Shown in pieces: positions 16,168-24,193 of a DNA stretch of 42,688 nucleotides (position 1 is the stretch's first letter; every line of letters starts with the position of its first letter). The stretch lies in the NCBI GenBank assembly GCA_031266515.1, contig JAISAW010000146.1, positions 1 to 42,688 on the forward strand. Reading direction: 5' to 3'. The stretch comes from Eubacteriales Family XIII. Incertae Sedis bacterium (lineage in GTDB: Bacteria; Bacillota; Clostridia; Peptostreptococcales; Anaerovoracaceae). Both the position numbers and the translations under genes were made by a program. The notes under the pieces are model-generated. The model ran no database searches, was not told the DNA's origin, and saw only the letters and a program-made list of their open reading frames with translations.

Positions 16168-17160
16168 ATGACAATCAATCTGAAGGGTCGGAGTTTTTTA
16201 TCACTGAAGGATTTTAGCGGTGAGGAAATACGCTATCTTCTTGATCTGTCAAAGGATCTCAAAGCCAAAAGGAAGAGAGGCGAGCCCGGGACCTCACTCA
16301 GGGGCAAAAGCATCCTCCTGCTTTTTGAAAAAACTTCGTCGAGGACGAGATGTTCGTTCGAAGTGGCCGCCATCGAAGAAGGGGGCTACGCCACATATAT
16401 AGCCCCGGGCTCTTCGCAGTTCGGGAAAAAGGAGAGCATAGCGGACAGCGCACAGATTTTTGCCAGATACTATCATGGTATCGAATACAGGGGCTACGCC
16501 CAGAAAGTGGTGGAGGATCTTGCAAAATACAGCGGCATCCCTGTGTGGAACGGGCTCACGGACGACGAGCACCCGACACAGATACTCGCCGACCTTCTCA
16601 CAATCGAAGAAAATATCTCCAAGCCTCTTTCGGAAGTAAAGGTGGTCTTTTGCGGGGACATCAGGAACAATATGTCGTATTCGTGGATGTACGGCTGCGC
16701 CAAACTGGGAATGCACTACGTAGCCTACGGGCCGCCGGAGCTTGCGCCGTCACAGCCAGTGCTGGATCAGGCCCGGGAGATCGCAGAGGGCACGGGCGCA
16801 GTCATCGAGTGGGGATCCGACCCCTCGCTGCTCGCCGGTGCCGATGTAGTCTACACAGACGTATGGGCTTCAATGGGCGAAGAGGATCAGATACCGGAGC
16901 GGGCACGTCTTCTGAAGCCGTACAAGGTCACCGAAGAGCTGATGGCGGCGACGGGAAACCCTGACGTGGTCTTCCTGCACTGCCTTCCCGCCTTCCACGA
17001 TTTCGATACGGCGCTTGCCGCCGAACAAAAAGAACTCGGCCACGATATCCGCGAGGTGGACGACAAAGTCTTCAAGAGCAAAGCTTCCAAGGTGTTTGAT
17101 GAAGCCGAAAACCGCCTCCACACGATCAAAGCCATACTGGTGGCGACGCTGGGAGATTAG
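16168..17160 (+). CDS. argF: ornithine carbamoyltransferase
   Basis: It joins carbamoyl phosphate and ornithine to citrulline, in arginine synthesis or, in reverse, in the arginine deiminase pathway. The carbamoyl-phosphate loop appears as SSRTRCSFE (residues 57-65; usually STRTR). HPTQ follows in 'DDEHPTQILADLLTI', and the ornithine-site HCLPAFHD is near residue 270. The length of 330 aa is typical. AAAGG lies eight bases before the ATG. No other arginine gene is in the window, so anabolic argF and catabolic arcB cannot be told apart. Arginine codons are about half AGG/AGA, in contrast with the next gene. Confidence 0.93.
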   Translation: MTINLKGRSFLSLKDFSGEEIRYLLDLSKDLKAKRKRGEPGTSLRGKSILLLFEKTSSRTRCSFEVAAIEEGGYATYIAPGSSQFGKKESIADSAQIFARYYHGIEYRGYAQKVVEDLAKYSGIPVWNGLTDDEHPTQILADLLTIEENISKPLSEVKVVFCGDIRNNMSYSWMYGCAKLGMHYVAYGPPELAPSQPVLDQAREIAEGTGAVIEWGSDPSLLAGADVVYTDVWASMGEEDQIPERARLLKPYKVTEELMAATGNPDVVFLHCLPAFHDFDTALAAEQKELGHDIREVDDKVFKSKASKVFDEAENRLHTIKAILVATLGD

Positions 17161-17177: not shown

Positions 17178-19040
17178 ATGACAATCAAGGACATTGCGGA
17201 GCTGGCAGGCGTTTCCGTCTCGACCGTATCCAAGATCATAAACGGGAAAGACCAGAATATTAAGAAACAGACGCGGGAACGGGTACTTGACATCGTCAAG
17301 CGTTATAACTACACACCTTACGCGTTCATTAAAAATATGGAACGCGGCAGAAGCTTTTTGCTGGGCTTGATATTAGACGCAGGCGACGCCGACGGCGCAT
17401 TCACGAACCGTTTCATCAAGACCGCGAACACGCACGGTTATCAGGTTGCCTTGTGCAGAAACGAAACACCGGAGGACGAACTTAAACATATAGCTTCGCT
17501 TTGCAAAAACGGGGTTGACGGCGTCGCGTGGCGGCCGTTTTCGGACGACAGCCGCGCACATGAAGCACATTTTCGGAAGAACCGGATTGTCTGCGCCACG
17601 CTGCCTGCCCCCGGCGAGGATGGCGGCATCGATTACGCAGATGCAGGATTTACGGCCGCGCAACTATTGGTCGAACAGAAGCACACAGGAATTGGTTATA
17701 TCGGGGATGAAAGCCGCTATTCGGAGCTTTATCTGCAAGGCATCCGGCGATACCTGTTCGAGAGCAATATCCCTTTCCGGGAAGATGAGCAGGTTTATCC
17801 GATGCAAGCAAACCTCTTCGGTTGGATCCAGCAGGCAAAACTGACAGCACTTATCTGCGCTTCGGAAGCGGCCGCATTGCGGATATACGATATGGCAAGG
17901 ATACAGCACTGTCAAATACCGGAGGAATTGTCCATCGTCTGCATAACCGGCAAAAACGCCGGAGAAACCCTCTATCCCGGCGTGACAAATCTGGCGGTTC
18001 CCTATGGCGCTTACGGACAGTATATTGCGGAAAAACTTATCGCACAAATCGAGGCAACCGGGGAACCGGCCTGTGCTTTCGTGTGCGAACCGCTCCGCCG
18101 CGACGGAAACTCCGTCGCCCCGCCAAAGTCCCCGGACAAAAATATCCTCGTCGTCGGCAGCATCAATATTGACGTTATGGTTCAAGTGACGTCTCCGCCG
18201 CAGATGGGTGCGGTTATCACTGCGGAGCATTGCGTATCGTTGCCTGGCGGCAAGGGGATGAACCAATCCGTCGCGGTCGCGAAATTGGGCGCAAGTTCGG
18301 CCTTGATCGGCAAGGTAGGACGGGATTATGACAGCATTCAAGTCTATGACTGCCTGCATGAGCACGGCGTAAACACACGCGGCGTTTCGGCCGACCGGAA
18401 ACGCGATACAGGGAAGGCGTATATATACGTTCAAAGAGATGGGGAGAGTTCCATCGTCATCTATCCCGGCGCGAACTATCTGCTGACCACGCATGATATT
18501 GAAGCACAAAAAGAATTGTTTGGGAACGCACGTTTTTGTCTGTTACAGACCGAAATCCCGATGGACGCCGTTTGCTTCGCGGCAGAACTGGCGAAGGCAG
18601 AGGGGGCGCTTACAATGCTGAAACCCTCAATGGCCGAGGCGTTGCCGGACGAATTATACCGCAAAATCGACTATTTCATGCCGAACGCACAGGAAGCCAG
18701 CCTGCTGTCGGGCGAGGCCGAACCCGAAAAACAGGCGGCATTCTTTCTGAAGAAAGGCGTTGGGGCCGTCGTCATAACGTTGGGGCACGTGGGCTGTTAT
18801 TGGCGGAGCTCCGGCAGCGACGGGCGGTACTTTCCTGCTTATGAGTTTAAGGCGGTGGATACGACAGGTGGCGCGGACGCTTTTATTGCGGCGTTCGCGG
18901 TAAAACTGGCAGACGGCGAGACGGCAGAACGCGCCATCGAGTACGCAATGTGCGCAGCAGGCTTTGCTGTTTCACGTCAGGGTACGGTGCCGGCAATGAT
19001 AGACAAAACCACGTTGGAACTGTATATGCGGAACGCCTGA
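17178..19040 (+). CDS. LacI-family regulator fused to a ribokinase-like (PfkB) domain
   Basis: A 620-aa fusion. Residues 1-50 are a LacI helix-turn-helix (IKDIAELAGVSVSTVSKIIN). Residues 60-305 are a periplasmic-binding-like ligand domain. Residues 321-618 are a ribokinase-type PfkB domain (VVGSINIDVMV, PGGKGMNQSVAVAKLGA). The PfkB signature reads DTTGGADAF where DTTGAGD or DTTAAGD is usual: the catalytic Asp567 stays but the Gly before it is Ala. The NPAPA-like loop is LKPSMA. The kinase domain may therefore bind ribose or a nucleoside more than phosphorylate it. The gene converges on an rbsK-nucleoside hydrolase-ECF operon that it probably controls. It starts 17 bp after argF but uses mostly CGN arginine codons, unlike argF. 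Confidence 0.88.
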   Translation: MTIKDIAELAGVSVSTVSKIINGKDQNIKKQTRERVLDIVKRYNYTPYAFIKNMERGRSFLLGLILDAGDADGAFTNRFIKTANTHGYQVALCRNETPEDELKHIASLCKNGVDGVAWRPFSDDSRAHEAHFRKNRIVCATLPAPGEDGGIDYADAGFTAAQLLVEQKHTGIGYIGDESRYSELYLQGIRRYLFESNIPFREDEQVYPMQANLFGWIQQAKLTALICASEAAALRIYDMARIQHCQIPEELSIVCITGKNAGETLYPGVTNLAVPYGAYGQYIAEKLIAQIEATGEPACAFVCEPLRRDGNSVAPPKSPDKNILVVGSINIDVMVQVTSPPQMGAVITAEHCVSLPGGKGMNQSVAVAKLGASSALIGKVGRDYDSIQVYDCLHEHGVNTRGVSADRKRDTGKAYIYVQRDGESSIVIYPGANYLLTTHDIEAQKELFGNARFCLLQTEIPMDAVCFAAELAKAEGALTMLKPSMAEALPDELYRKIDYFMPNAQEASLLSGEAEPEKQAAFFLKKGVGAVVITLGHVGCYWRSSGSDGRYFPAYEFKAVDTTGGADAFIAAFAVKLADGETAERAIEYAMCAAGFAVSRQGTVPAMIDKTTLELYMRNA

Positions 19041-19166: not shown

Positions 19167-19988
19167 CTAAGCCTCCATCATGCAACGGATGACATCCGCT
19201 TCCGTCAGGCAGACCTCGCCAAGTCCCATACTTATTGCCAATTGCAACGCGTACGGCGGTTCCAAATGCGCTTTTTTCAGCATCTCTGCGTCAGAAAAAA
19301 CCTCTTTTGCGCCGCCGTCAAGCAATTTTTCTCCTTCGTTGAACACAATTATCCGCTCGAAACATTCCGCCACAAAATCCATATCATGGATGATCGTCAT
19401 GACCGATTTCCCCTCGTCCCTCAGGAGCCGGATCACACGTTTCACCTTCTCCCTGCCGACATAATCCTGCGAGATCGTCGGTTCGTCCAAGATGATGATA
19501 TCCGTGTCCATCGCCATGACGGACGCAATACACAGCAACTTCTTGTCCGAAAGCGCAAGGTCATGCGGATTCGTGTCCAACTTGTCCGAAAGTTCCATGA
19601 TGTCAAGCGCACGCATTACGCTCTTTCGCGCCGCACCCTCGCCCATGCCTATATTCAGAGGGCCGAACATCGCCTCATCCATGACAGTCTTCTTAAACAA
19701 CTGGTCGTTCGGGTTTTGAAACACGAGGCCGATATTCCGGGCGAGCCTCGCGGCTGTCGTCCGGCTCACATCCTCCCCCATGACAGTAACCGCCCCACGA
19801 TTTGCCGTCAGCAACCCTTTGAGGATGCGGACGAATGTCGTTTTCCCCGCGCCGTTTTGCCCGATTATGGCCGTCGGGCGCTTGTCGATCTCAAGGCTGA
19901 TATCGCGCAGTGCGTACTTTTTGTCCGGATTCGGCCGTTTTCTGTCGTCCGGTTCATATGAAAACCACAGGTTTTGTACAGAAATCAT
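19167..19988 (-). CDS. ECF transporter ATPase subunit, second copy (degenerate signature)
   Basis: An ABC ATPase of 273 aa, the A' partner in an energy-coupling factor module. Walker A is GQNGAGKTT (43-51), the Q-loop is QNPND, Walker B is IIILDEPT (164-171), and the switch His is in IIHDMDF. The ABC signature, normally LSGGQ, reads LSDKK (146-150). The D-loop is TISQD in place of TSGLD. One of the two composite ATP sites is thus expected to be altered, a feature also known in some other ECF ATPases. I take ATG 19988, which forms an ATGA overlap with the upstream ATPase, over a longer open frame. It is the last gene of the salvage operon. Confidence 0.85.
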   Translation of the reverse strand: MISVQNLWFSYEPDDRKRPNPDKKYALRDISLEIDKRPTAIIGQNGAGKTTFVRILKGLLTANRGAVTVMGEDVSRTTAARLARNIGLVFQNPNDQLFKKTVMDEAMFGPLNIGMGEGAARKSVMRALDIMELSDKLDTNPHDLALSDKKLLCIASVMAMDTDIIILDEPTISQDYVGREKVKRVIRLLRDEGKSVMTIIHDMDFVAECFERIIVFNEGEKLLDGGAKEVFSDAEMLKKAHLEPPYALQLAISMGLGEVCLTEADVIRCMMEA

Positions 19989-20821
19989 CGTCTCGCCCCC
20001 AGTACGCGCGCCGCGCCCGCCAGCGTGACGGGATAGTACGCGCCTTCCTTTTTGCCCAGAGCCTTGCAGATATTTGTGTAAACCGGCGCGCATACGCCCA
20101 ATTCCGACAGGTCGTCCCGCGAGAAAACCTTTGCAGGCGTGTCGAACGCCGCCCGCTTTCCATCCTTCATCACGAGTATTTTGTCGCAATATTGGGCTAC
20201 CTTTTCCATCTTGTGTTCCACGATGACCACCGTCATGCCTTCGGCGCTCAATTCGTCCATGGCGGAAAACACTTCTTCGGTCCCCTGCGGGTCCAACTGC
20301 GAAGTCGGTTCGTCAAGCACGATAATGCTCGGGCGCATGGCGATAATGCCTGCGATGGCCATACGTTGCATCTGCCCGCCGGACAAGCTGAACGGGTTTT
20401 GATTACGGAAGGGATAAATATTCAACAGATGCAACGCGCGGTCAACTTTCTCGATCATTTCCGCGCGCGACAAGCCCATGTTCTCAAGCCCGAACGCCAC
20501 TTCCTCGTAAACGGTCAGTTTTGCACCCGTCACCTGCGTGAAGGGATTCTGAAACACGATGCCCACCTTCAACGCCGCTTCGCTGACGGTTGCGTGTTTG
20601 ATTTCCAAGCCGTCAACGATGACCCTGCCGCCGTATGTACCCTTGTAAAAATGTGGAGTCAAACCGACCAATGCCTGACAGAGCGTGGACTTCCCGGACG
20701 AGTTTCGCCCTATAACACCGATTTTCTCCCCTTCCTCGACCTCAAAGGAGATTTCGTCCAAGGCGAGCTGTTTCATCGCGGGATATCTATACTTGAGATT
20801 TTCCACAATCACCTTTTTCAC
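19985..20821 (-). CDS. ECF transporter ATPase subunit (canonical)
   Basis: An ABC ATPase with all motifs intact: Walker A GRNSSGKST (38-46), Q-loop QNPFTQVTG, signature LSGGQMQR, Walker B IIVLDEPTSQLDP, and the His switch VIVEHKM. I choose GTG 20821 (278 aa), which overlaps the EcfT stop as GTGA, the same coupling seen at the gene's other end. An ATG at 20845 would add 8 residues (MARRGCFA) that fit the family poorly. With the degenerate partner it powers uptake through the T and S subunits. Confidence 0.88.
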   Translation of the reverse strand: MKKVIVENLKYRYPAMKQLALDEISFEVEEGEKIGVIGRNSSGKSTLCQALVGLTPHFYKGTYGGRVIVDGLEIKHATVSEAALKVGIVFQNPFTQVTGAKLTVYEEVAFGLENMGLSRAEMIEKVDRALHLLNIYPFRNQNPFSLSGGQMQRMAIAGIIAMRPSIIVLDEPTSQLDPQGTEEVFSAMDELSAEGMTVVIVEHKMEKVAQYCDKILVMKDGKRAAFDTPAKVFSRDDLSELGVCAPVYTNICKALGKKEGAYYPVTLAGAARVLGARR

Positions 20822-21594
20822 AGCAAAACACCCCCTGCGCGCCAAGCCACCGCCGAAACGGCTAACAGGACAAACAGGACTCTGTAGGCCATGGCATGGC
20901 GAAAATTTACAGCTTCGTTCAAGAATGATTTCTTGTTCTTCGCATCAAATGCCCGCACTTCCAGAGCCATTGCGCGTTCTTTCGTATTCATAAACGAATT
21001 GAGCACAACCGGGCCCAGCAGCGGCAAAAAAGCCTTTATACGTACGGGCAACGAGCCTTTTGTTTCAACGCCCCGGGCACGTTGGGCATCGGTGATGACA
21101 TCGATGGCGCCGGCCATATGCGGCACAATCTGAAAGATCGACATGATCACATAGCCGATGCGCGGGGAGAACCCGGCGCGGATCAGATCCTCGACGAGAT
21201 CCGAGGGTTTCGTCGTCAGGATGAGAATCAGAAAAGCGGCAACCATATCTGTCATGCGCATGATGATTTTAACGCCATTTATCATTCCTTCCGCGTAAAA
21301 ATGTATGCCGGAAATGGAAAATACGACCGTGGCGTTGTTGATGTTCGCCAACGCCTGTATCAGAAAGATCGTAATCATAATCAGAAACAGGCAGGCAAAG
21401 ACTGTGATTGCGTTTCTCAGCACTTTCCCGACCGCGAGAAGGATAAGGCTTACGGCAGCACATACAATGCTCACAGTCAAATCCTTCATCACGAACGGGA
21501 CAATGATGGCCGCAAAGATATAAAACAGCTTCGTGATCGGGTCTACCCGATGGATGAACGAATCACGTTCTACGTACAGGCTCAGCGATTTCAT
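20818..21594 (-). CDS. ECF transporter transmembrane subunit EcfT
   Basis: A membrane protein of 258 aa with about five or six hydrophobic segments. The EcfT coupling motif is visible as DAQRARGVETKGS (ARG box), which docks onto the two ATPases. The N-terminus (YVERDSFIHRVDPITKLF) is the usual family start. It lies 46 bp after the S-component gene and overlaps the first ATPase by 4 bp. Since the four ECF genes are together, this is probably a dedicated (group I) transporter. Confidence 0.88.
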   Translation of the reverse strand: MKSLSLYVERDSFIHRVDPITKLFYIFAAIIVPFVMKDLTVSIVCAAVSLILLAVGKVLRNAITVFACLFLIMITIFLIQALANINNATVVFSISGIHFYAEGMINGVKIIMRMTDMVAAFLILILTTKPSDLVEDLIRAGFSPRIGYVIMSIFQIVPHMAGAIDVITDAQRARGVETKGSLPVRIKAFLPLLGPVVLNSFMNTKERAMALEVRAFDAKNKKSFLNEAVNFRHAMAYRVLFVLLAVSAVAWRAGGVLL

Positions 21595-21640
21595 GATAAC
21601 CTTCCTGCTTCACGGGCGATTTGCAGACATCATTATGCGG

Positions 21641-22246
21641 TTAGAATTCCTCAACATCCGTATTCGTCTTATACAGTTGCAACAGATTTTTTGGCAAAGC
21701 CTTAAACAGGCCCCAGGCGATAATCACCGAAGCGATACTGTCGGGTATGCCTATGATGAGCGAATCTATGGTAGAAGCAAGCAGTACGGAATGCGTTTTC
21801 GCCAGAATAATGCCGTATGCCGCGTCGCCCCAGACATTGCCTGTCATTCCTTCCCAGAAGATGATGTTGATTGGCACGGATACGATGGTCGAGATGACGC
21901 ACATCACAAGCGCCAACACTATCACCCGCCAAAAGCTTTTCGTCCAACCGTAGTGCGCCATGACGCCTACGGTAACGCCCATCGCGACACTTGTGAGCGC
22001 GTAGGGAATGGATATCGGATCCTGGAACCCATAGATGACGTTATTCACCGCGCCTGCGATCGCGCCGATCCACGGTCCTGCAAGCATACTCGCCAGGATC
22101 GTGCCGATGGAATCCATCCATAAAGGCAGCTTCAACAGGCTCACCACCAATTTCCCGACAAAGTTAATACCTATTGCGGCGGGAATCAGTGCCAGCGATG
22201 CGGTCGTAAACCGCGGGGAAAAGGGGCTTTTCTTTTTTTCATGCAT
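21641..22246 (-). CDS. ECF transporter substrate-binding S component (likely nucleoside/ribose)
   Basis: A 201-aa membrane protein with about six hydrophobic segments and a short basic N-terminus (MHEKKKSPFSPRF). The block 'LWMDSIGTILASMLAGPW' followed by IGAIAGAVNNVIYG is typical of S components that bind small organic ligands. The sequence alone does not fix the ligand. Between a nucleoside hydrolase with ribokinase and the EcfT/A/A' genes, a nucleoside (or free ribose) is the best inference. Confidence 0.8.
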   Translation of the reverse strand: MHEKKKSPFSPRFTTASLALIPAAIGINFVGKLVVSLLKLPLWMDSIGTILASMLAGPWIGAIAGAVNNVIYGFQDPISIPYALTSVAMGVTVGVMAHYGWTKSFWRVIVLALVMCVISTIVSVPINIIFWEGMTGNVWGDAAYGIILAKTHSVLLASTIDSLIIGIPDSIASVIIAWGLFKALPKNLLQLYKTNTDVEEF

Positions 22247-22271
22247 CGTTATACCTCCATATCAATCCAAA

Positions 22272-23168
22272 TCAATACAAACGCTCTTTCACCAATTCAT
22301 AAAACTGTTCCTTATTCAATCCTTCTGCATACGCATAGAAAAAATCCCGCTCGGATTCCGGTTCAATTTCATATATATCCGTTTTGGACACGATGCTCCC
22401 CCGCGTCAAGGCACCGGACAGCTCGATCGTGTAATCGCCGCGACGCAGCCGCGCGACAGAGGGGTCAATGAGGTACGCAATCGGCAGCGCATCATGAAGC
22501 ATCAGTTTCCAACCCGTCGTTTCGCAATAAATTTTCGCGCCGCTACGCCAGTACGCCATACATTCGTTATCCGGAGGGCAGAGTTGTTCCAAAAATTCCG
22601 GCGTTACAAGCAGATGCTTCGTGACATCCAAGCCAAACATTTCAAGCCGCCCTGCGCCGTCCATTACAAGCCTTGCTGCCTCCGGGTCGCATTGCATATT
22701 CCACTCTGTCCCACCGCCCGCAAAATCCCCGCCCATAGCGACGACTCGAACACTCTTCATGATGTCGGGTGCCCTATAGAACGCCATGCCGAGATTTGTC
22801 ATTGGCCCCATCTCCACGATCGTCACATCCTGATACTCCGCCGCCGTCCGTATTATGAAGCCCACTGCGTCGTTTTCATCGCCTTCCGGCACACCTCGGT
22901 CATCCGGCAAAATTGCATATTGCACCGGCGATTCCTCATAAGGCAACCTTTCAATCAGCGGCCGGCCATAACCGCAGTGTACAGGGATATCGTTCCTGCC
23001 ATACCTGCGCAGCAAATCCAGAACCATCGCAGCGCGCTTCCGCGTATTGTGAAGCACCGTCGTAATTCCCAAAATCTCCAGCTCCGGGGAATGCAAGGAC
23101 ATGATGAGCGCCGCGGCGTCGTCCGCATCATCGCCCAAATCCGTGTCGATCAGAATTTTCGTCTTCAT
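22272..23168 (-). CDS. nucleoside hydrolase, IUNH family
   Basis: It hydrolyses the N-glycosidic bond of ribonucleosides to free base and ribose. The calcium-binding N-terminal motif is 'DTDLGDDADDAAAL' (residues 8-21), a variant of the classical DTDPGxDD also seen in other clostridial members. The second metal/active-site region is 'MLHDALPIAYLIDP' near residue 230, with the His-Asp pair. Length is 298 aa and there is no signal peptide, so it acts on imported nucleosides. It follows rbsK by 9 bp; together they convert nucleoside to base plus ribose-5-phosphate. Base preference cannot be read from the sequence. Confidence 0.9.
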   Translation of the reverse strand: MKTKILIDTDLGDDADDAAALIMSLHSPELEILGITTVLHNTRKRAAMVLDLLRRYGRNDIPVHCGYGRPLIERLPYEESPVQYAILPDDRGVPEGDENDAVGFIIRTAAEYQDVTIVEMGPMTNLGMAFYRAPDIMKSVRVVAMGGDFAGGGTEWNMQCDPEAARLVMDGAGRLEMFGLDVTKHLLVTPEFLEQLCPPDNECMAYWRSGAKIYCETTGWKLMLHDALPIAYLIDPSVARLRRGDYTIELSGALTRGSIVSKTDIYEIEPESERDFFYAYAEGLNKEQFYELVKERLY

Positions 23169-23177
23169 GATTTTGCC

Positions 23178-24104
23178 TCATTTCTCATTCCATATCTCCG
23201 AAATTTCGTCGACTTCCTCCCGCGCAGGCATCGAGTTTTGGGTACCTGCACGCGTTACGGCTATCGACGCCGCGCGATTGGCAAAGGCGATTGCCCGCGC
23301 CTCGTCCATGCCCTCTGACAGTGCCACGGCAAAAGCGCCGTTGAAACAATCGCCCGCCGCCGTCGTATCGACCGCCCGCACTTCCCGAGCGGGGAAATAC
23401 GTGCAGGTACCGTCCGCCGACAGAAGTGCGCCCTTTCCCCCCAACGTGACAACGACCTTTCCTGCGCCTTTGCCGTTCAGGATGCAGGCGGCTTCTTCCG
23501 GCCGCATCGCCGCGTCGCCGCCGGCAAGGGTTACAGCTTCGTGCTCGTTCGGCGTCAAGTAGTCCACCAGTCGCAATATGTCTTCAGGAATGAATGTCGG
23601 CGCAGGCGCCGGGTTCAGAATGACCGTCTTCCCCATCGTCTTCGCCAATCGAATCGTGTTATAAACCGTGCTTTGTGGAATTTCCATTTGCAACAACACA
23701 TAATCGCAGTGCGCGATCATATCCTCATGTAACTGTATACGGGCGGTATCGCAGGTGTGATTGGCACCAGGCACAACGACGATACTGTTGCCGCCGCCAT
23801 CATCGACATAAATGACCGCAAGCCCCGTCGTCACGCCAATGACGCGGGAAATGCCGCTTTCGTCAACATTCATGGCTTTCAGCTCGTTTGAGAGTTTTGC
23901 TCCAAAAGCGTCGTCCCCGACGCAACCTATCATTGCTGTATCTCCACCCAGTTTCGCAACGGCGGCGGCTTGGTTGGCACCTTTCCCGCCCGGAAGATAC
24001 GTCAAGCCCCCGCCGTAAACCGTCTCCCCGGGAAGTGGCATGGATTTCACCCGAACCACCATGTCCATGTTCAAGCTGCCTACGACCAATATTTTTTTCC
24101 TCAT
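23178..24104 (-). CDS. rbsK: ribokinase
   Basis: It phosphorylates ribose to ribose-5-phosphate. PfkB landmarks are intact: VVGSLNMDMVVRV, PGGKGANQAAAVAKLGG, ILNPAPAPT, TLGGKGAL and DTTAAGDCFNGAFA with the catalytic Asp. It is 308 aa long, normal for RbsK. It is first in the nucleoside-salvage operon, downstream of a perfect promoter. It differs from the kinase domain of the neighbouring fusion regulator, which has lost the usual AAGD/GAGD motif. Arginine codons are nearly all CGN. Confidence 0.93.
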   Translation of the reverse strand: MRKKILVVGSLNMDMVVRVKSMPLPGETVYGGGLTYLPGGKGANQAAAVAKLGGDTAMIGCVGDDAFGAKLSNELKAMNVDESGISRVIGVTTGLAVIYVDDGGGNSIVVVPGANHTCDTARIQLHEDMIAHCDYVLLQMEIPQSTVYNTIRLAKTMGKTVILNPAPAPTFIPEDILRLVDYLTPNEHEAVTLAGGDAAMRPEEAACILNGKGAGKVVVTLGGKGALLSADGTCTYFPAREVRAVDTTAAGDCFNGAFAVALSEGMDEARAIAFANRAASIAVTRAGTQNSMPAREEVDEISEIWNEK

Positions 24105-24164
24105 GTATGCATTCCTTGCAACATTATGTACGAAACAATTTTCTTAAACTATTTTCCTAAAGAA

Positions 24165-24193
24165 ATTATAGCTATGGACTTTATCTCTGTCAA
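24165..24193 (-). promoter_or_regulatory. consensus sigma-A promoter of the salvage operon
   Basis: On the minus strand TTGACA (24193-24188) and TATAAT (24170-24165) are perfect hexamers with a 17-bp spacer. An imperfect dyad, TTTCTT ... AAGAAA (about 24140-24165 on the plus strand), lies just downstream of the -10 and could be a repressor operator. The rbsK start codon is about 55 bp downstream of the expected start point. Such a strong promoter would need repression, presumably by the LacI-ribokinase fusion. Confidence 0.7.

Follow-up and report, generated by a model that had tools for sequence, protein, structure and literature searches.

A putative LacI-family repressor of ribose salvage with a fused ribokinase-like domain as its probable sensor

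The 620-aa product of a gene at 17178–19040 (plus strand) of the window, the whole 42,688-base stretch of DNA analysed, is best described, as far as its sequence indicates, as a LacI-family repressor variant with a kinase-derived ribose sensor. With a probability of about 0.68, it would repress ribonucleoside and ribose salvage, sensing having moved from the sugar pocket of the LacI domain to a fused, catalytically impaired ribokinase domain. Sequence comparison supports a kinase domain in which the ribose pocket is kept and the phosphoryl-transfer loop is apparently not intact, an association of the fusion family with a composite operator of overlapping palindromes, and a putative operator in the window covering the predicted start site of an rbsK–nucleoside hydrolase–ECF operon.

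Domain architecture, family spread and origin

The fusion gene is an uninterrupted ATG-to-stop frame. Its product comprises a helix-turn-helix (HTH) region (aa 1–47), an altered hinge (48–60), a LacI effector-core fold (about 61–310) and a ribokinase-like domain (318–620). Pfam assigns residues 2–47 to the LacI HTH (PF00356, E 1.4e-16, 60.4 bits against a cutoff of 27), residues 162–298 to Peripla_BP_3 (PF13377, E 7e-16, 59.2 bits against 26.5) and residues 321–605 to PfkB (E 3.5e-54); a ROK match is absent from its Pfam families, and the kinase domain is a PfkB domain with the ribokinase fold. The AlphaFold2 model, built with 57 relatives, has a mean pLDDT of 90.2, with hinge residues 50–54 below 50; its pTM is only 0.60, which leaves the arrangement of the domains uncertain. 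Against the ribose- and ADP-bound E. coli ribokinase (1rkd), residues 320–620 of the model give Z 45.8 and rmsd 1.2 Å over 300 residues. The fold-match lists contain ribokinase-fold chains only, filled by the kinase domain, and the lack of LacI chains in them is uninformative. An earlier note on this DNA had proposed an HTH, a ligand domain and a full-length ribokinase-like domain in one 620-aa frame, and the reading frame, Pfam, the model and the fold match all confirm it. The protein scores 260.3 bits with the ribokinase equivalog TIGR02152, under its cutoff of 299.65, and falls below both RbsR models (94 of 382 bits for NF047341; 54 of 531 for NF007743).

The LacI-PfkB architecture is a genuine family of about 100 homologues, far beyond chance. 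Most occur in Lachnospiraceae, others in Enterococcus, Treponema, Collinsella and Synergistaceae. The source genome, an 82%-complete assembly of 1.79 Mb, carries one such fusion, and the architecture is rare, with two besides that of the window among 391 class-sample genomes. A full-length search found the fusions G239, G533 and G541; G533 (39% identity) is apparently the same gene as L107 of Ruminiclostridium papyrosolvens C7. A scan of genome contigs for close relatives with the window protein itself gave no match; a C-terminal profile succeeded, yielding 170 relatives in 84,980 species genomes, and 77 of the best 80 of these 170 are complete fusions. One large family, which the named relatives indicate is probably Lachnospiraceae, has the fusion in 30 of 397 genomes, with 29 readable; this survey set and the profile-scan set share species. 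Relatives in the profile scan were chosen by active-site patterns, and residue frequencies are therefore quoted below from another sample of 33 fusions, found in a full-length search that used a four-fusion profile, and likewise sharing species with the profile-scan set. Several other candidates (G008, G401, G612, G850 and others) were rejected as fusions, being tandem rbsR-rbsK pairs joined through stop codons.

In a quick tree, all 79 of 79 fusion kinase domains form one clade nested among unfused ribokinases (SH-aLRT 94, just below the tool's own mark of 95). The nearest unfused kinases include the rbsK of G612, which lies about 12 bp after an rbsR gene as a tandem pair. This tree makes a single origin from neighbouring rbsR and rbsK genes most likely; the simplest route would be loss of the stop in a tandem pair, while another rbsK copy retained the enzymatic function. 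RbsR, including the Bacillota tandem rbsR-rbsK pairs, resembles the fusion in its LacI HTH, its effector-core fold, a role as ribose-gene repressor, presumed for the fusion, and the gene order rbsR-rbsK, that of the likely ancestor.

Hungatella hathewayi WAL-18680 has two fusion-type genes about 11 kb apart (L098 and L116), the L098 copy being N-terminally truncated to a 466-residue frame without the HTH. Plasmids of 1.1–1.2 Mb in Enterococcus raffinosus (NZ_CP072889, NZ_CP104765) carry a fusion that shares 75% identity with the L090 fusion, so the regulator can be plasmid-borne.

The salvage operon and its putative composite operator

The operon next to the fusion gene runs from 19167 to 24104 on the minus strand and consists of rbsK, a nucleoside hydrolase gene and four ECF transporter genes. 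RbsK (23178–24104) has the canonical motifs NPAPA and DTTAAGD and scores 346.3 bits with TIGR02152 (cutoff 299.65). It is followed by a nucleoside hydrolase of the inosine-uridine-preferring type (22272–23168; PF01156, E 1.8e-51), a CD3073-like ECF S component (21641–22246; NF045596, E 4e-26, below its cutoff), a T component (20818–21594; PF02361, E 1.7e-28) and two ATPases (19985–20845, PF00005 and TIGR04520 at 249 bits; 19167–19988, PF00005 and TIGR04521 at 207 bits), all on the minus strand. The start of the second ATPase was set at an internal ATG (MISVQNLWF); the mechanical reading frame extends to 20189. The earlier note had the fusion facing an operon with its own rbsK: the ribokinase is a true one, and the facing is convergent, not divergent. 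Most relatives are divergent from the operon promoter, but the fusion gene of the window sits downstream of the operon's last gene. An ornithine carbamoyltransferase gene (16168–17160, same strand) ends 17 bp ahead of it; co-transcription of the two is possible and would be unusual among LacI-PfkB fusions.

The operator motif was obtained by a symmetric expectation-maximisation search upstream of fusion genes and then retrained without the window. It is a palindrome, TTTAGGAAAATATTTTCCTAAA, of 22 bp, usually doubled at exactly 13 bp, and the retrained motif has an LL of 414 against 44–56 in four Markov controls. Across the 42,688 bases of the window, its two best sites are 24140–24161 (19.7) and 24127–24148 (15.4), and the next best scores 8.1. 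Together they form a composite operator at 24127–24161 (no strand assigned), two palindromes offset by 13 bp, which is the only zero-mismatch site in the source genome. Near-matches on two other contigs of that genome were discounted, one lying between rho and another gene (C45) and one inside an isomerase-like gene (C63).

The same arrangement recurs in the family. Exact 13-bp pairs occur in 53 of 71 site-bearing related loci (62 pairs), the next most frequent offset being 86 bp with 8. The aligned consensus, TTAgGAAAAtATTTTCcTAAAat.TTTTCtTa, consists of three half-sites, the middle one common to the two palindromes. In a second, partly overlapping survey, the 400 bp ahead of the fusion gene contain a site in 21 of 29 loci, against 4 of 1450 shuffles, and 139 kb of fusion coding sequence contain only one site scoring above 10. 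Sites are also about 85–87 and 98–100 bp apart in several loci, a spacing that looping of the DNA by a tetramer might explain. A basal subclade (e.g. L093, L105, L115, L120) is without a clear operator copy. The fusion gene of the window has no operator of its own; given also the carbamoyltransferase gene 17 bp upstream, it is probably not autoregulated there.

The composite operator starts 3 bp past the −10 box of a consensus sigma-70 promoter (TTGACA-17-TATAAT, 12/12 match; 24165–24193, minus strand) that reads into rbsK, which would place the expected start site beneath a bound protein. The region 24140–24165 had been named beforehand as the target, and the two best motif sites beside a perfect promoter support that choice well: regulation of the salvage operon by the fusion at this place is very likely, as the operator evidence suggests.

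The genomic context of the relatives points in a similar direction. Typically, the fusion gene diverges from an operon that encodes RbsK, a nucleoside hydrolase and a transporter, the transporter type varying among ECF, Bmp-type nucleoside ABC, sugar ABC and Rbs ABC. Neighbours within about 8 kb, with families checked with Pfam, were counted in the 52 loci that had been read for 6 kb or more on each side. RbsK is present in 41 of these 52 loci, nucleoside hydrolase in 32 and an ADP-ribosylglycohydrolase-family gene in 15; 38 have RbsK together with one hydrolase type, and 47 have at least one of the three. From these families, the common theme of the loci would be the release and use of ribose. 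Homologues lying away from nucleoside genes had been named as grounds for refutation, and the 47 loci leave the proposal standing. That the architecture is a chance or recently broken fusion without specific function has a negligible probability: its rarity is all that speaks for it, and a single clade of about 100 members with conserved context and operator refutes it.

Two further features of the context were observed. Proteins of the ADP-ribosylglycohydrolase family (PF03747) replace or join the nucleoside hydrolase in 22 of 77 loci (e.g. L059, L061, L063, L070, L078), and their substrate may be a ribosylated nutrient. ECF S components accompany a nucleoside hydrolase and/or ribokinase and the fusion in the window and in L090, L092, L096, L097, L102, L112, L114 and L121; this co-location across several genera suggests a ribonucleoside or ribose substrate for the orphan S-component family.

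Ligand sites of the LacI core and the kinase-like domain

The LacI core has lost the residues that would be expected to contact an effector. Arg195, Asn246, Asp247, Asp274 and the Pro72-Phe73 loop of RbsR are present in 11 of the 11 unfused RbsR proteins used for comparison and lost in most fusions. The kinase domain has 52 strongly conserved columns (< 0.5 bit) among 292, and the core 9 among 250. The earlier note had proposed two ligands, one for each domain. A two-input regulator of this kind, in which the LacI core reads a nucleoside, a nucleobase or ribose and the kinase domain reads ribose or ATP, could draw on the facts that the core is retained and confidently modelled and that residues such as H169, D114 and S252 are still conserved in it; the lost contacts and the far greater variability of the core make it very unlikely. 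The two-ligand proposal is therefore not supported, and it is simpler to assume one sensing site, located in the kinase domain. The LacI core could bind some different ligand.

The hinge is altered as well. The motif P-N/S-x-x-A-R-x-L is lost: Tyr48 occupies 109 of 109 fusions where 11 of 11 RbsR proteins have Asn or Ser, and A51, R52 and L54 are gone in most fusions. In LacI and PurR, the hinge contacts the central CG of the operator. The loss of the motif matches the fusion operator, an even palindrome whose central pair is not CG; among even LacI operators, most have a central CG and a minority have another or a degenerate centre (PMC4052901). Because the hinge motif is lost, the fusion is filed as a variant with LacI/GalR domains and not as a typical member. 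Unlike RbsR, it thus has a ribokinase domain, has lost effector contacts and hinge motif, and is associated with an overlapping-palindrome operator without the central CG.

The kinase-like domain, on the other hand, keeps its sugar pocket. Ribose contacts in E. coli RbsK are N14, D16, G42, K43, N46, E143 and D255 (PMC9604405). All seven are intact in the window fusion and in 27 of the 33 fusions in the sample not picked by active-site pattern; Asn14 is replaced by His in some. The window fusion and most others also retain A98, I100 and I110 of the lid. Ribose had been among the ligands suggested for this domain, and that part of the suggestion fits the kept pocket.

The catalytic loop is different. 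A GAGD-type anion-hole loop has been described in adenosine kinases (PMC3101181). The anion-hole Gly254, invariant in the 85 stand-alone enzymes, is lost in 31 of 33 fusions (Ala 22, Ser 5, Cys 3, Asp 1); GAGD is retained in two fusions, and the window protein reads GGAD. A near-universal loss of Gly254 in the profile scan was dropped, since the scan pattern had selected for it, and the frequency was re-measured in these 33. In all 33 fusions, Lys replaces Asn166 of the NPAPA motif, a position held by Asn or Asp in the 85 enzymes. Other fusion-specific changes are N108S, A252G and A291V/T. Compared with RbsK, which it resembles in fold and in ribose contacts, the window fusion differs by Gly254 to Ala, Asn166 to Lys, Ala252 to Gly and Ala291 to Thr, by the attached repressor and by its score below the equivalog cutoff.

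Catalysis may not be abolished throughout. Catalytic Asp255 is kept in 31 of 33 fusions, NxxE in 32 of 33 and GGKGxN in nearly all; with Asp255 and NxxE in most members, residual or slow catalysis is possible. For ATP sensing, the altered anion hole and the kept NxxE point in opposite directions. These residues and the intact ribokinase fold would suit a bifunctional trigger enzyme, in which the fused domain still phosphorylates a pentose or nucleoside, perhaps slowly, and its catalytic state controls DNA binding. This is quite unlikely in view of the replaced Gly254 and Asn166, changes found in none of the 85 enzymes, of the Asn at position 255 in two members, and of the separate RbsK near most fusions. 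The best candidates for complete loss of kinase activity are the two Asn-bearing proteins (L155 and L157, GAAN).

Instead of free ribose, the effector of the kinase domain might be a ribosylated compound able to occupy the ribose pocket, such as a nucleoside, ADP-ribose or ribose 1-phosphate. The ADP-ribosylglycohydrolase-family genes in the 22 loci, the changing transporter types and the fusion-specific N108S, A291V and N166K would agree with such an effector. It is nevertheless unlikely: the window protein, like most fusions, retains the ribose contacts and lid residues, and free ribose is the one intermediate common to the hydrolase and ribokinase pathways. Taken together, the kept ribose pocket, the altered catalytic loop and the decayed, variable LacI core suggest that sensing lies with the kinase domain and that the LacI core would act as a scaffold.

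A proposed switch and its relation to known regulators

According to the preferred reading, a dimer or tetramer of the fusion would occupy the operator in the absence of ribose and block initiation. Imported nucleosides would be hydrolysed, and the free ribose would bind the kinase-like domain. The lid would then close, the change would be relayed through the LacI core, and the repressor would leave the operator. The separate, active RbsK would clear the ribose and reset the switch.

The same principle of a kinase fold as sensor is known from ROK repressors (NagC, Mlc), in which a kinase gained a DNA-binding domain and the sugar-kinase fold became the sensor (PMC12696579). The kinase of the fusion is PfkB, not ROK, and ROK repressors have no LacI effector core in between.

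YeiI of E. coli (model NF007416, 362 aa) has an N-terminal HTH and a PfkB domain. It would differ from the fusion in having no LacI effector core and in belonging to another subfamily. No description of a LacI-PfkB regulator was found in the open full-text literature; subscription papers and preprints lay outside this scope.

Chances are about even that the fusions represent a widespread, undescribed LacI-family class in which a ribokinase pseudoenzyme is the sole sensor, the ancestral LacI sugar pocket has degenerated into a scaffold for relay and dimerisation, and a new hinge accompanies a new overlapping-palindrome operator code. If true, it would be an independent PfkB-fold counterpart of the use of a kinase fold by ROK repressors. 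RbsK and its apparent switch relative, about 4 kb apart with a common ribose pocket, would offer a cheap and specific test of the change from enzyme to switch. The fusion-associated ECF S component is predicted to transport ribonucleosides or ribose, and the nucleoside and ribose salvage clusters of common gut bacteria (Blautia, Hungatella, Anaerostipes, Enterococcus) would be assigned a regulator and an operator.
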